DNA of 62,558 nucleotides from Lentisphaerota bacterium (GTDB taxonomy: Bacteria > Verrucomicrobiota > Lentisphaeria > Victivallales > UBA1829): assembly GCA_015061915.1 (NCBI GenBank), contig SUVR01000013.1:1-62558 (forward strand). The letters are read 5' to 3'. This document shows, piece after piece, positions 5,312 through 12,161 of this stretch (position 1 is its first letter; each line of letters opens with the position of its first letter). Both the position numbers and the translations under genes were made by a program. The notes under the pieces are model-generated. The model ran no database searches. It saw only the letters and a list, made by a program, of their open reading frames with translations, and was not told where the DNA came from.

Positions 5312-6451
5312 ATGTGGAACAAACTGAAAACGATTTATGAAAAAATCATCAATGCGGAAATCCCGTACAAGCGCTGGTGCAAGATCGTGATCCTTGCTGT
5401 GCTTGGGATCATTTTCGGTGCTGTGGCATTGGTCTATGTGGTCGATCCCCACTACCGGTATCGCCTGCCGGGGTTCTACGACACGGTTTATTATGAACTC
5501 TACGCCACTGCGCCACGTCTGCTGCGGGATATGGAATACGATACCTTTGTCCTCGGCTCTTCCATGACCCGGAATTTCTTTCTGAATGACATTGATGCCG
5601 CACTTGGTGGAAAATCCGTCAAGCTGGCGGCATCCGGGGCAACGACCACCGATTTGAAAAAGTTTTTTGACATTGCCCTTGAAGCAAAAGGCGATTCCCT
5701 CAAACGGGTGGTCTTCTCCCTTGACATCTATTCCATGAACAAGAGCAAAGATGAAGCGCATTACAAGGAATTTGAATATCTTTACCGGGATGACTTGGCA
5801 GAGGAATATAAATATTTCTTCTCCCGGCAGACCTATTCCAGTATGTTTTATCTGCTCAAACGCAAAATCAGACCGAAGAAAAAACGGCAGCATCAGGCAG
5901 ATGTCAACCGGATGTTCTCCACGGAATATGACGGGATGCGTTTCGGGATCCGGGAAGTGATGGCGGATGCGATCCACAATGAACGGATCCACCACAGCCA
6001 AACTCCGGCACACCCGAAGAACTTTGAACACAGTCTGAACAACTGCCTGCTCGCAATGATCGCCGAAAACCCGCAGATCAAGTTTACGGTATACCTGCCG
6101 CCGTATCACATTTACACCTACTGCCAGAGTGAACAGTTCAAGGAGGCGGAAGGGCTGATCCGGCAGCGGACTCTGGTCATGAAGCAACTGCTGAAATATC
6201 CCAATGTAACGCTGTATGATTTCCAGACGGACCGTTCTTATGTCTGCGATCATGACCTTTACAGCGATGTGCAGCACTTCAGTTCCCATGCCGCACGGCG
6301 GATCCTTTCCGATCTCACCGCCGGACGCCACCGCATCAGAACAGAAGCAGAAGTCATTGCAAACGAACATGAACTGCGTGAACTGATCAAAGAACAAATG
6401 CCGATTTATTACGCCAATCTCAAAAAGTTCAAGGAGCAGAGGAAACACTGA
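5312..6451 (+). CDS. Membrane-anchored SGNH-like protein (AlgX/DltD-type partner)
   Basis: Likely the extracytoplasmic half of a polymer acylation pathway, moving or removing acyl groups on a surface glycan. A single membrane helix (about residues 24-44) anchors a 335-residue outer domain. SGNH features are visible: block I as LGSSMTRN with S83/S84, a substrate-binding Gly-Asn-like loop near residue 110, and a block V-like D319-x2-H322 pair. The next gene is an MBOAT acyltransferase that overlaps this one by one base (TGATG), the arrangement seen for alginate and related acetylation genes. The polymer itself is not identified, and the family can also include catalytically silent partners. Confidence 0.75.
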   Translation: MWNKLKTIYEKIINAEIPYKRWCKIVILAVLGIIFGAVALVYVVDPHYRYRLPGFYDTVYYELYATAPRLLRDMEYDTFVLGSSMTRNFFLNDIDAALGGKSVKLAASGATTTDLKKFFDIALEAKGDSLKRVVFSLDIYSMNKSKDEAHYKEFEYLYRDDLAEEYKYFFSRQTYSSMFYLLKRKIRPKKKRQHQADVNRMFSTEYDGMRFGIREVMADAIHNERIHHSQTPAHPKNFEHSLNNCLLAMIAENPQIKFTVYLPPYHIYTYCQSEQFKEAEGLIRQRTLVMKQLLKYPNVTLYDFQTDRSYVCDHDLYSDVQHFSSHAARRILSDLTAGRHRIRTEAEVIANEHELRELIKEQMPIYYANLKKFKEQRKH

Positions 6452-7824
6452 TGCTTTTCCCGACTTTTACATTTCTTTTCGGTTTTCTGCCCCTGACCGT
6501 GATCGTGTATTTTCTGCTTTCCAGCCGGAGCAGGATCGTATCCCAGATCTGGCTGGTGCTGGCGTCCTTCGTCTTTTACTCCTGGTTCAACTGGAGTTAT
6601 TCCCTGATCCTCGGCGGATCTCTGCTGATGAACTGGTTTTTCGCGCAGCTGCTGTATAAAAAACAGTCAAAGATCATCCTGACCATCGGGATCATCTGCA
6701 ATGTTCTGCTGCTGGGATACTTCAAGTATTACGACTTCTTTATTGAAAATATCAATGCCCTGTTCCAGACCTCGTTTCTGCTCAAGCACATTCTGCTGCC
6801 GTTGGGGATCAGCTTCTTTACCTTCCAGCAGATCTCGTTCCTGCAGCTGGTTTATTCCCGGTCTCTGGCAAAACGCTATTCCTTCGGCAGTTATGCCCTG
6901 TTTGTCTGCTTCTTCCCCCAGTTGATCGCCGGTCCGATCGTGCTGCCGGATGAGATGATGAGCCAGTTTGACAGAGACGACCGACTCCGCCCGAACGCAC
7001 GCAACATCGCCGCCGGTCTGTACCTCTTTGCGCTCGGTATGTCCAAAAAGATCCTGCTCGCCGACTTCTTTGCAGAGATGGCGGATCCGGGATTCCTGAA
7101 CGCCGCAGGAAACTTTTTCACCGGTTGGAAAACCGCCCTCGCCTACACGTTCCAGATCTATTTCGACTTCAGCGGGTACTGCGATATGGCGATCGGGCTG
7201 GGGCTGCTGTTCAATATCCGGCTGCCGAAAAACTTTCATTCGCCGTATCTTTCTGAAAATATTGCCGACTTCTGGCGGCGGTGGCATATCACGCTGGGAC
7301 GCTTCCTCATGACCGGACTTTACATTCCCCTCGGCGGCAACCGCTGCGGTAAGTTCCGGAACTGTCTGAACCTGCTGATCACGTTCTTTGTGAGCGGGTT
7401 ATGGCATGGGGCAAGTTGGCTCTTTGTTCTTTGGGGGATGCTCCACGGGACGGCGCTGGTGATCCACCGGATCTGGAGTAAGTTCCTGGGCTTGAAGATG
7501 CACCGCATCCCTGCAAAGCTGATCACGTTCCTTTTTGTGCTGTTGGCGTGGATCCCCTTCCGGGCAACGGATATGAGTCAGGTGAAGCAGCTGCTTGCCG
7601 CCATGTTCTGCCCCGAATCATGGAGTCTGCCCGCACCGTTTGATGTACGCGGTCTGCTGTTTTTGATTGCGGGCGGATTTATTATTGTCTTCCTGAAACC
7701 GGCGGTGGATATGGAGGAAAAATTCCGCCCCACGTGGGTCAACGCCATCCTGACGATCCTTCTGCTGATCGTGCCGATGTTCTTCTTTGTGAAGGTCTCC
7801 CCCTTTATCTACTTCAACTTCTGA
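6451..7824 (+). CDS. MBOAT-family membrane O-acyltransferase (AlgI/DltB-like)
   Basis: Multi-helix inner-membrane enzyme that transfers an acyl group, most often acetyl, across or at the membrane to a polysaccharide or other surface polymer. The 457-residue length and topology fit the AlgI branch. It opens with the family-typical LFPTFTFLFGFLP, contains KYYDFF and DFSGYCDMAIGLG, and carries the catalytic histidine in a GLWHGAS context (H319) with a second conserved His at 332 (MLHG). Translation is coupled to the SGNH gene upstream by a one-base overlap. A run of four 9-bp repeats follows its stop codon. The acceptor polymer is unknown; no complete polysaccharide cluster adjoins it. Confidence 0.9.
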   Translation: MLFPTFTFLFGFLPLTVIVYFLLSSRSRIVSQIWLVLASFVFYSWFNWSYSLILGGSLLMNWFFAQLLYKKQSKIILTIGIICNVLLLGYFKYYDFFIENINALFQTSFLLKHILLPLGISFFTFQQISFLQLVYSRSLAKRYSFGSYALFVCFFPQLIAGPIVLPDEMMSQFDRDDRLRPNARNIAAGLYLFALGMSKKILLADFFAEMADPGFLNAAGNFFTGWKTALAYTFQIYFDFSGYCDMAIGLGLLFNIRLPKNFHSPYLSENIADFWRRWHITLGRFLMTGLYIPLGGNRCGKFRNCLNLLITFFVSGLWHGASWLFVLWGMLHGTALVIHRIWSKFLGLKMHRIPAKLITFLFVLLAWIPFRATDMSQVKQLLAAMFCPESWSLPAPFDVRGLLFLIAGGFIIVFLKPAVDMEEKFRPTWVNAILTILLLIVPMFFFVKVSPFIYFNF

Positions 7825-7842
7825 CCGGAATCTCTCCGGCGT

Positions 7843-7878
7843 CGGACTTTTCGGACTTTTCGGACTTTTCGGACTTTT
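7843..7878. repeat. Four perfect tandem copies of a 9-bp unit
   Basis: CGGACTTTT is repeated four times without change, 19 bases after the MBOAT stop. It lies between convergent genes and is in no supported reading frame. It could vary in copy number by slippage. Confidence 0.9.
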
Positions 7879-7909
7879 TCTGCAGGTGTCCATACCGACC
7901 CGTAATGTG

Positions 7910-7928
7910 CCCCGCCCTGACGGCGGGG
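7910..7928. other. GC hairpin downstream of the variable repeat
   Basis: A perfect 7-bp stem CCCCGCC/GGCGGGG encloses a 5-base loop. No T-run follows on either strand, so it is not a good intrinsic terminator. It lies 41 bases past the stop of the lipoprotein gene. Retroelement target sites often have a short GC hairpin just after the variable repeat, so the position is suggestive. A further inverted repeat, CAGTTCAA at 7941-7948 and TTGAACTG at 7973-7980, spans the stop codon. Confidence 0.6.
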
Positions 7929-7969
7929 ATCACACGGTTTCAGTTCAAAAAAACAATGAAGCTGCCGTT

Positions 7970-9268
7970 TTATTGAACTGGGACAAGAGCGAGGCGGAAG
8001 CCGCTGAAGTCGCGCCGGTAGTCCGGGTCGTTGCGGCACCGGAACGCCACCAGGCAGCTGATCGCGTTGAGGTTCCAACTGCCGCCGCGTAAAACGCGGT
8101 AGGAGCCATCGGTATCCAAGCACCATTCCATTACATTCCCGCTCATATCATACAAACCGAGTTCGTTGGGCTTTTTCGTGCCGACATCATGGTGGGTTAT
8201 ATTATCGGAATTGCCATCATGCCACGCAACTTCATTGATATCATTACTGCCGCTGTATTCATATCCTTTGCTCTTGTTTCCGCCACGGGCGGCAAACTCC
8301 CACTGGGCTTCCGTGGGAAGAGAGAATTTATAGCCTGCCGGTGCCAGTCCGGCATCATTCAATCGCTTGCAAAATTCCATAGCATCGTTCCAACTGACCA
8401 TCTCCACCGGACGATCCGCCCCCTTGAAGTAGGCGGGATTGTTTCCCATCACCGCCTTCCACTGCGCCTGCGTCACTTCATATTTTCCAATGTAGCAGTC
8501 TTTTTCTTCAATTTTTATGAAAGATTTTATGAGATGTGACAAAGCATTTCTTAGAGCTTCTTTTTCTGCTTTTTCAAAAGTCCCTTCTGCCGCATCCAGC
8601 GACTGCAATGCTTCATCATATTTTTCCTGTGCATTTGCACTCACTGCCCGCTGCAAACAAGAAAGAGCCTCTTGATGAATCGCAGATGCCCACCGAGAAG
8701 CATTCACCATATCCGCCTTTTCTTTGGCGGCATTTGTTACCCGTACTGCCGCACGGAATGCCGAGGCGGTGGAAGTGGCTTTTTTGTATTCGTTTGCTGC
8801 AAGCACATACAAACGGGTCGCTTCCTCGAATTCGCTTTTTTCGTATGCTTCCTGTCCCTGCTGTTCGTATTTTTCCGCTTCTGCATAAATCGTGGAGGCA
8901 TATTTCGGAGCATAAGTTCCGTTGGATTCGCGTTTCCGGCTTTGCAGTACGCTGTATTGTTCATCCGCTTCGGCGCAGTTCATGATCCAGTCGGCAGCGG
9001 CTTCGGCTTCCTGCAGGAATTTGGAGGTGGCATTATAATCGCTCTGAGAAAAAGCACGGTTGGCAATAGCTTGTTTACGCTTGAGCAGATCCCATTTTTC
9101 CTGAAATCCCTGATCGATACTGAGGCGGGCGTCTTCGATCTTTTTCGCTTTTTCCTCTACACGGACAAGTTGTTCGTAAATCTCCTCCTCAGATTTTTCA
9201 TTTCCGCATCCGCAGAATCCAAGCGTCACCGCCAGAGCAAGCCCCAGCAGAACCAATGTTTTTTTCAT
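7970..9268 (-). CDS. Lipoprotein with coiled coil and SUMF (C-type-lectin fold) domain; candidate retroelement target
   Basis: Probably a surface-exposed ligand-binding protein. It has a lipoprotein signal with the acylated Cys at C21, a long Lys/Glu/Ala-rich helical region (about residues 25-245) that looks like coiled coil or helical repeats, and a C-terminal formylglycine-generating-enzyme domain (about 255-432) with KYEVTQAQW, LPTEAQWEFAARGG, GNVMEW, LRGGSW and GFRLA. The family name suggests sulfatase activation, but the sulfatase-activating cysteines are not evident and this fold is also the scaffold of diversity-generating retroelement targets such as the TvpA lipoprotein of Treponema. 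Codons from W398 to L426 are nearly all C- or G-ending, unlike the mixed codons before them. The gene is transcribed alone. Function as a variable binding protein is inference. Confidence 0.82.
   Translation of the reverse strand: MKKTLVLLGLALAVTLGFCGCGNEKSEEEIYEQLVRVEEKAKKIEDARLSIDQGFQEKWDLLKRKQAIANRAFSQSDYNATSKFLQEAEAAADWIMNCAEADEQYSVLQSRKRESNGTYAPKYASTIYAEAEKYEQQGQEAYEKSEFEEATRLYVLAANEYKKATSTASAFRAAVRVTNAAKEKADMVNASRWASAIHQEALSCLQRAVSANAQEKYDEALQSLDAAEGTFEKAEKEALRNALSHLIKSFIKIEEKDCYIGKYEVTQAQWKAVMGNNPAYFKGADRPVEMVSWNDAMEFCKRLNDAGLAPAGYKFSLPTEAQWEFAARGGNKSKGYEYSGSNDINEVAWHDGNSDNITHHDVGTKKPNELGLYDMSGNVMEWCLDTDGSYRVLRGGSWNLNAISCLVAFRCRNDPDYRRDFSGFRLALVPVQ
7976..8090 (-). repeat. Putative variable repeat of a diversity-generating retroelement
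   Basis: Within residues 394-427 the fixed positions (GGSW, A402, A408, R410, P415, R418, GFRLA) match the constant residues of SUMF-type variable repeats. The positions that are Asn (AAC) in typical template repeats are here N399, L400, N401, I403, S404, F409, C411, R412, N413, D414, D416, Y417, R419, D420, F421 and S422. Every one of these codons ends in C, so each differs from AAC only at its two adenines, as adenine-specific mutagenesis would give. The G/C-rich end (GGCTTCCGCCTCGC) could be the initiation site of homing. No second copy of this sequence and no reverse transcriptase is present in the window. Confidence 0.68.
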
Positions 9269-9692: not shown

Positions 9693-12161
9693 TTACTTCC
9701 GGAAACGGCTGCAGAAGAGGCAATCCGGCTTTTCGCAAAGGAGAATCAGGGGATCTTCCCTGACCAGTTCCAGCCCGATCCGGTAAAGTTCCTGCAGGTC
9801 GATCACCTGAATGAAGTTCATCCCCAGCGGAACTTTTGTCACTTTCAAGCCACGCTCAAACGCCTTGCGGTAGAACACGCTGTTCTCCGCCGGTTCCCAG
9901 TAAAATTCCCGGTCGCCGGGCAGATGCTTTTCAATGGCGACCGTCTTGAGATCACCGGTCTCCGTCTTCACCCGGCAGATGGCGGTATCCAGATACGGCA
10001 CATCTGCGATGTCTTCCAGATAATGCAGGAATGTGGAGGGTTCCAGACCGGTCCCGAAGAACAGGATCTTGCCGTTCAGCTCCAGAGCCTTTTCCAGCGG
10101 AGAATTTTTGCCGGTGGGGGTGTCGCAGGGTTCGTGGGCGTCCAGACAGGCGTGTGCTTTGCTTCCGAATCCCGCCCAGGAATGAGTCACATGGCGGCTG
10201 CGGATCGCATCCGGATAGTTCCGCAGAACCGTTTTACCGATGGTTCCGGTCCAGACCTGATCCGGGTTGGCGGGATCGTGGGGCTGGTAATTCCATCCGC
10301 TGTTGACGCCGCCCAGATAGATGTACGGGCGGGTGAACGTGGTAAAAAGGCAGGTATCGGACGCTTCACGGATGGCATTGATGACCGTTTCCGCGCCGCC
10401 TTGAATGTATCCGCACTTGGAGATGGAGGCATGAACCAGCAACACATCGTCCTGCGTGATCCCCGCCTGTTTCAGTGCGGCAACAAGATCTTCCTGCGTC
10501 AAGGCGGGCCGTTCGATCACATCCAGATAGCCGTAATCCGCCAAGTGGTTCAGGGCATTGAGGACCTTTTTGACCTGACCTTCTTTCAGGTCGAAGCCCC
10601 GCTCCGCCTCGGCTTCCAGAATCAGAGTCGCCACATTCTTTTTGCCGTCCATATTGCTCAAAATGTTGCCAAAGGGACCATAGATCACGCCGTCCGGCAG
10701 AGGGATCTTCGCATAGGCAGGAACTTTCGCCTGTGAATAGGGGAAGCCGGGTTCTTTCCGGGCAAAAACAAACTTTGCAGCGTAATCCCGCCACGGAGAG
10801 TGCAGGTCCTTCAGTTCCAGTTTCTGTTCCGGCACGACCACATTTGCGCCATTCGCCATCCGGTAAAAATAGACACAGGCAAAGGCGGCATTTTCGTGGA
10901 GCAGATCCCAGTTGATAAAATCCGGTTCGCACTGGCGGGAGTTGTGCCAGAGACCGCCGCTCTTGCCGCCCATCAGCCAGGTGGTCGGCACGCCCACAGC
11001 CTTATCCGAAAGGCTCTGGTCGTCGTGATATTCTTTCGTGGCATACAGGAGACGGCGGCTGTCCTTGAACTCGTCGTACATCTCTTTCAGGATCACATTG
11101 CAGAGGCTGGGATCGCATCCGGAGGGGCTGAGTTTCAGGTCAATATCTCCGGTCACGCAGCAGATGTTATCCAAATTGCACGCGCCTGCGACTTTTCCGT
11201 TCAGATCATTACCACGGTAAGCAGCGTAGGCGGCAAAACCGTAAAATTCCATGGCAAAGACCAGACGGATGGAATAGTCCGGGGTTCCGCCCTTCTTCAA
11301 GAGCTGTTTGGCAATTTCGATCCCCGTGATGACCCCGATGGCGTCGTCGTTCAGCATGGGCTCGAACAGATGCGCCATGATCCAGACTTCCTTTTCGCTC
11401 TTGCCGGGGATCAGCGCCGTAACCATTGGCAACACGCCCTCGTAACGGTGTCCGTCGCACTCCACCTTGACTTTGCAGCCGTTGGTTTTGCGGATCATAT
11501 CCCCCACTTTCGGCGATACGCTGAAGCCGATGAACGGACGGTCCTGTGCCGTCACGTGCCAATCGCCCGCCTCCGTACAGGCAACGACCCACTGGAGGTG
11601 ATCGGGGGTGCTGTATCTGCCGACCAGATAATCGGAAACGACACCCAATCCGCCCTGATCGAGGATCGGTTTCAGGACCCGGGGACGGGGATCCGTCATG
11701 GGGTTGAGCATCACAAGACAGCCCCGGGGATCCGTTCCGGCAAGGTATTGATCTTCCGTGATGATCCGGGTGATGATCCCTTCCGGCGGTGTGGAAACTG
11801 AACCGTGGATCAGATGGAACGGATGCCGCTGGTAATCCGCCAACACCCCTTCCCCGCCGGCGCCATCGCCCCAATAGGGAGTCCATGCCGGAGCGTTGCC
11901 CATGATGGTGAGTTTTCCCACAGAGGCATCCCACGCAATGGGCATCCGCTTATCCTGATAGACCGTCTTTCCGTCGGCAGGAAATTCCAGCAGTTCCACG
12001 TTCGGGATACCGTTTTCGATCATAAGATCCCGCACGAATTCGCACGCTTTGTACTGAGCGGCGGAGGTTTGCTTCTGCTCGATTTGCATCAATTTGATCG
12101 CATTTTCACGGAGGAAATCTTTATCGACTCCGGCAAGAAATTCCTGATACATTTTTTTCAT
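9693..12161 (-). CDS. Fusion of M28-type aminopeptidase and AAC(3)-like N-acetyltransferase
   Basis: An 822-residue cytoplasmic protein (no signal peptide) with two enzyme-like parts. Residues 1 to about 470 resemble a divergent M28 zinc aminopeptidase: AHLFEPMLNDDAIGV gives the metal-binding His and Asp, a CNLDNI segment and a later HDDQ follow in family order. Residues about 540-800 resemble the aminoglycoside 3-N-acetyltransferase/YokD family: DVLLVHASISKCG, then GGAETVINAI, then SRHVTHSWAGFG and NGKILFFGTGLEPSTFLHYLED. A short winged-helix-like link lies between. Joining these two activities is unusual; a peptide or amino-sugar conjugate would suit both, but this is a guess. It is 24 bases downstream of the HD gene and probably co-transcribed with it. 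Confidence 0.75.
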   Translation of the reverse strand: MKKMYQEFLAGVDKDFLRENAIKLMQIEQKQTSAAQYKACEFVRDLMIENGIPNVELLEFPADGKTVYQDKRMPIAWDASVGKLTIMGNAPAWTPYWGDGAGGEGVLADYQRHPFHLIHGSVSTPPEGIITRIITEDQYLAGTDPRGCLVMLNPMTDPRPRVLKPILDQGGLGVVSDYLVGRYSTPDHLQWVVACTEAGDWHVTAQDRPFIGFSVSPKVGDMIRKTNGCKVKVECDGHRYEGVLPMVTALIPGKSEKEVWIMAHLFEPMLNDDAIGVITGIEIAKQLLKKGGTPDYSIRLVFAMEFYGFAAYAAYRGNDLNGKVAGACNLDNICCVTGDIDLKLSPSGCDPSLCNVILKEMYDEFKDSRRLLYATKEYHDDQSLSDKAVGVPTTWLMGGKSGGLWHNSRQCEPDFINWDLLHENAAFACVYFYRMANGANVVVPEQKLELKDLHSPWRDYAAKFVFARKEPGFPYSQAKVPAYAKIPLPDGVIYGPFGNILSNMDGKKNVATLILEAEAERGFDLKEGQVKKVLNALNHLADYGYLDVIERPALTQEDLVAALKQAGITQDDVLLVHASISKCGYIQGGAETVINAIREASDTCLFTTFTRPYIYLGGVNSGWNYQPHDPANPDQVWTGTIGKTVLRNYPDAIRSRHVTHSWAGFGSKAHACLDAHEPCDTPTGKNSPLEKALELNGKILFFGTGLEPSTFLHYLEDIADVPYLDTAICRVKTETGDLKTVAIEKHLPGDREFYWEPAENSVFYRKAFERGLKVTKVPLGMNFIQVIDLQELYRIGLELVREDPLILLCEKPDCLFCSRFRK

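Follow-up and report, generated by a model that had tools for sequence, protein, structure and literature searches.

A retroelement variable repeat in a gut Lentisphaeria lipoprotein gene, probably orphaned by loss of the neighbouring cassette

A lipoprotein gene of a gut Lentisphaeria bacterium ends in a run of codons that a first-pass annotation read as the variable repeat (VR) of a diversity-generating retroelement (DGR), mutagenised at adenines by a template and reverse transcriptase (RT) acting from a distance. Neither template nor RT lies in the window, the whole 62,558-nucleotide stretch of DNA analysed here, just as that annotation had said. Was the gene end copied from such a template, and, if it was, what became of the machinery? 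We compared the window and the organism's own genome (G000, a draft of 2.49 Mb in 31 contigs, 97.4% complete) with a sister species from its genus (G001, identical in sequence to MAG RGIG8655, L043), using one genome per species. Table 1 collects the features discussed.

Table 1. Features of the target locus in the window and on sister contig L157
Feature	Position	Strand	Basis or remark
Target gene, putative 432-aa lipoprotein	7970..9268	-	Signal peptide with FCGC, helical N-terminal part, C-terminal SUMF/C-type-lectin domain
VR, codons 386-432, 141 bp	7973..8113 (8113 down to 7973)	-	Compared with sister template L157:1741-1881
Candidate IMH-like stretch (initiation of mutagenic homing), VR 3′ end	7973..8002	-	Nucleotide comparison of both VRs and template
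Inverted repeat across the stop codon that immediately follows the VR; 14 pairs (two runs)	7941..7980	-	DNA fold
Replacement stretch, 130 bp	7838..7967	.	Ends of blastn homology
MBOAT acyltransferase gene, flanking the missing cassette, syntenic in sister	6451..7824	+	Pfam MBOAT E 1.3e-31
Gene flanking target at 5′ side, syntenic in sister	9693..12161	-	Compared with L154
SUMF gene end with VR	L157:1-169		Sister target 3′ end
HRDC accessory protein, 170 aa	L157:321-833		HRDC E 3e-15
DGR-type RT, motifs GNLTSQ and YMDD	L157:781-1890		RVT_1 E 7e-23
Template repeat	L157:1741-1887		RT reading frame runs on through it
Small lipoprotein	L157:2057-2467		
MBOAT gene (part compared)	L157:2524-3386	Opposite to preceding L157 genes	

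The target protein has an FGE-sulfatase (SUMF) domain (Pfam E 1.5e-36), and its best PDB match by sequence is TvpA (2y3c, E 1.1e-27). An AlphaFold2 model gives this domain a pLDDT mostly above 90 and the part N-terminal to it low confidence; with the model as query, Foldseek also ranks TvpA 2y3c as the best PDB fold match (E 7e-17). The proposed likeness to TvpA thus holds by both sequence and fold, while the lipoprotein half of that proposal is a reading of the sequence, in which the protein looks like one. With SUMF found by Pfam and TvpA at the top of both searches, the locus shows what is expected of a DGR target, a gene that encodes a C-type-lectin fold and has a VR as its 3′ end. The protein is intact, and it probably continues to be produced and displayed for binding.

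The sister genome has one RVT_1 gene, on the 3.4-kb contig L157, where an RT with the SQ motif, a template, a VR and an accessory gene stand together as a complete DGR. The sister VR differs from its own template at 22 of 44 adenines and at 1 of 97 other bases. Continuation of the RT frame through the template gives the RT a SUMF-like tail of ~48 aa, and the same RT-template arrangement, at 67% identity, occurs in another family of the same order (G079:C147, L224). The small lipoprotein on L157 starts much as the target protein does (signal peptide, EKSEETGIE), and from this resemblance it is apparently a partial duplicate of the target 5′ end within the cassette region.

Aligned without gaps to the sister template, the window VR is changed at 23 of 44 adenines but at only 2 of 97 other bases (hypergeometric P = 2.6e-12). 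Both non-adenine changes fall after the first 125 positions, within which there are none. One of them, GCT to GTT close to the 3′ end, also occurs in the sister VR, as TR and VR are expected to differ in the homing region. The concentration of mismatches at template adenines confirms that the window gene tail is a genuine DGR variable repeat: a template of this sequence wrote it or its ancestor. Both the placing of a DGR target at the 3′ end of the gene and the adenine mutagenesis, proposed from the window alone, are borne out by this comparison. Thirteen adenine sites are changed in both VRs, and the new base agrees at only five of them; mutagenesis thus took place independently in the two lineages.

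The template also corrects the outline of the repeat. Sixteen variable codons ending in C had been counted between residues 399 and 422; the endings are right, but the template has AAC at 15 positions (399-401, 403, 404, 409, 411-414, 417 and 419-422), and the sixteenth, residue 416, is a GAC that is fixed as GAC in the template too. At 141 bp, the repeat is longer than had been supposed, and four mutagenised codons had been missed: 387 (AAT to GAT), 390 (AAC to TAC), 393 (ATA to TTA) and 406 (CAA to CTG).

Might an ordinary SUMF tail have come to look like this by natural divergence and a codon bias to C, with no retroelement at all? Here SUMF tails do vary by nature, and the codon run alone is not decisive, since another window gene also reaches 18 of 24 C-ending codons. 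Many SUMF tails in other gut bacterial genomes have 11-13 of 14 variable codons ending in C, which is why we did not take a template-free codon test as proof; an NNC-pattern search allowing mismatches gave about as many matches as its control. The sister template contradicts this explanation. When other SUMF tails served as mock templates in 147 control comparisons, the share of non-adenine bases that were changed had a median of 0.41 and a lowest value of 0.16, so that none comes close to the 0.011 of the real template over the same stretch, and an ordinary tail is also at odds with the unchanged non-adenine bases across the first 125 positions. We give it practically no credence. In 36 genomes of the family, the template pattern with adenines masked occurs only three times: in the window VR, the sister VR and the sister template.

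The position of the sister cassette is given by two contigs. The MBOAT gene of L157 is 97.2% identical to that of the window over 863 bp. A second contig, L154, carries the first 355 target codons and the window's upstream neighbour gene (95.2% identity over 2,003 bp). The sister locus is divided between these contigs inside the target gene, with residues 356-377 absent, and the adjacency of its 5′ part is by synteny. On the synteny of L157 and L154, the sister cassette lies at the same site, between the target and MBOAT. There the window has the 130-bp replacement stretch in place of 2,352 bp of the sister (accessory gene, RT, template and small lipoprotein). This stretch has no likeness to sister sequence and is unique within its own genome, and its junctions do not form a clean deletion. 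Loss of the neighbouring cassette appears to be the best reading of this replacement. The stretch includes a tandem array of a 9-bp unit (TCGGACTTT, 4.1 copies) at 7842-7878.

No remnants of an RT or HRDC gene were found within the 62-kb window. The organism's own genome yielded no RVT_1 domain, no template repeat by similarity search or A-masked pattern search, and no cassette DNA other than the VR, which was also the sole match in a search for relatives of the sister RT. The one further match of note in the template search (G000:C15:135235, E 1e-6) encodes an Asn-rich part of a Rho-like protein and is no template. A second SUMF gene (G000:C2) was considered as a further DGR target and rejected, with only 3 of 14 variable codons ending in C; the genome has only one target-like SUMF gene. 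A phage origin was likewise set aside, no viral contig being found to encode a relative of the sister RT or the masked template. No SQ-motif RT of the DGR clade was found in this genome, so we class the window as an orphan target and not as a DGR. The first-pass annotation had named the absence of template and RT from the genome as grounds for dropping the target assignment, and formally that absence is what we find; yet it does not overturn the assignment, because the sister template shows that the VR was copied from such a template.

The explanation that we consider probable is that the tail of the window SUMF lipoprotein is a DGR VR that was subsequently orphaned by loss of an adjacent accessory-RT-template block. 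By analogy with DGR biology, the RT and the HRDC accessory protein of the ancestor would have copied the template RNA encoded next to the target, making random errors at its adenines, and the mutagenised cDNA would then have overwritten the 3′ end of the target gene in the homing step. Such overwriting may have altered up to ~19 residues upon a fixed lectin scaffold. Judging from the syntenic sister locus, the window lineage would later have lost the adjacent block, with 130 bp now in its place, and the binding site would be frozen, barring the arrival of a DGR that has this same template.

How long ago this happened may be gauged from silent changes. The window VR has at most one at ~31 template-protected synonymous sites, against 2.9-9.5 expected from the neighbouring genes and the gene body, a deficit that is not significant at the lowest expected rate (P 0.21). 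With the same limit at that lowest rate, the scarcity of silent changes suggests that the last overwriting, and hence the loss of the cassette, was recent. It would equally fit recent copying, or a well-conserved template, if an RT and template on an unbinned mobile element, or in the portion of the genome missing from the draft, were still serving the VR in trans. The genome is indeed a draft, which leaves room for an unbinned contig or plasmid that carries a cassette, and both T. denticola (PMC4891356) and cyanobacteria (PMC7517822) have known examples of remote targets. Such service from afar is nevertheless unlikely, as 2.49 Mb at 97.4% completeness contain no RT, template or cassette fragment and no other SUMF gene like the target. 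The earlier idea that the repeat acts at a distance from its template and RT is accordingly not supported: neither was found in its own genome, and in the sister the cassette adjoins the gene.

The cassette may instead never have been present in cis, if recombination brought in the target, with its VR already diversified, from a relative that bears a DGR. Between window and sister, the target body has dN 0.079 and dS 0.39, far beyond its neighbours (dN 0.003-0.006, dS 0.10 and 0.22), so the locus may have been exchanged, and the 130-bp spacer is unrelated to that of the sister. The high divergence could, however, reflect either fast evolution or an exchange of the locus, and we rank neither above the other. 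Against recombination, the target has the same two neighbours in window and sister, with gene order and signal peptide kept, and we regard an arrival of this kind as very improbable.

Under the preferred reading of loss in place, the 3′ end of the VR may retain traces of homing. The IMH-like stretch, whose role as an IMH is putative, has GTT in both VRs and GCT in the template. The inverted repeat beyond it folds at -9.3 kcal/mol (z -2.7; 3 of 200 shuffles equally good), and the corresponding sister hairpin is weaker (-2.4). In phage BPP-1, a hairpin or cruciform after the VR is needed for homing (PMC3240598); that the window repeat might serve in this way is a guess.

Loss of the mutator may extend beyond this locus. 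It is conceivable, though we would not count on it, that RT-template cassettes come and go in this family while diversified lectin lipoproteins remain as fixed variants. Two other genomes (G006 and G021; 94% and 90% complete) have several SUMF tails with common fixed letters and differing NNC codons, and no RT was found in them. The same features recur across L262-L284 (G006, G007 and G021), with several tails per genome and no RT found, and these may be orphan targets as well. At L161:4997-5417 (G028), a template and a VR separated by 330 bp, with an RT close by, form a different DGR-like pair; closely similar RT matches occur in G029 and G034. Should closed genomes confirm it, recurrent mutator loss would be of greater interest than this one case. 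The present locus already offers a natural before-and-after pair, in which two close gut bacteria have one locus with and without the mutator cassette and their proteins differ at programmed sites. With such a pair one can ask how fast an orphaned VR evolves, and whether getting rid of the mutator is a way for a bacterium to fix a good variant. It also demonstrates that orphan repeats can be proved through the template of a sister species.

Orphan targets have been described before. T. denticola isolates with target genes but without RT and TR were read as leftovers of cassette loss (PMC4891356), DGR fragments in Nanoarchaeota were proposed as fossils (PMC4372165), and all3226 of Anabaena PCC 7120 has a VR-like repeat that was changed under the direction of a template in the past and has no RT close to it (PMC7517822). 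A global DGR survey, by its own statement, would not detect remote targets (PMC8144416). The closest parallel is the TvpA/DGR system of T. denticola, which has a SUMF/C-type-lectin lipoprotein target with its VR at the extreme C-terminus, tails that align column by column with that of the window, and orphan targets interpreted in the same way. Unlike T. denticola, the window comes from another phylum (Lentisphaeria), the sister accessory protein is of HRDC type, the sister RT and template share one reading frame, and the syntenic cassette of a close sister directly marks the site of loss. The proposed Nanoarchaeota fossils and all3226 share with the window VR-like repeats of template-directed history with no RT nearby, but in those cases the genome either has an RT at another site or keeps template homology, whereas neither was found in the window genome. 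At the BPP-1 target site the VR closes with a homing stretch, which the end of the window VR resembles, and an inverted repeat comes next, as it does in the window; it is a phage site with a GC-rich stem and a GRNA tetraloop, in contrast to the AT-rich stem and dissimilar 10-nt loop of the cellular window locus. Set beside these systems, the window is a new and unusually clean example of the orphan targets already described, and not a new kind.
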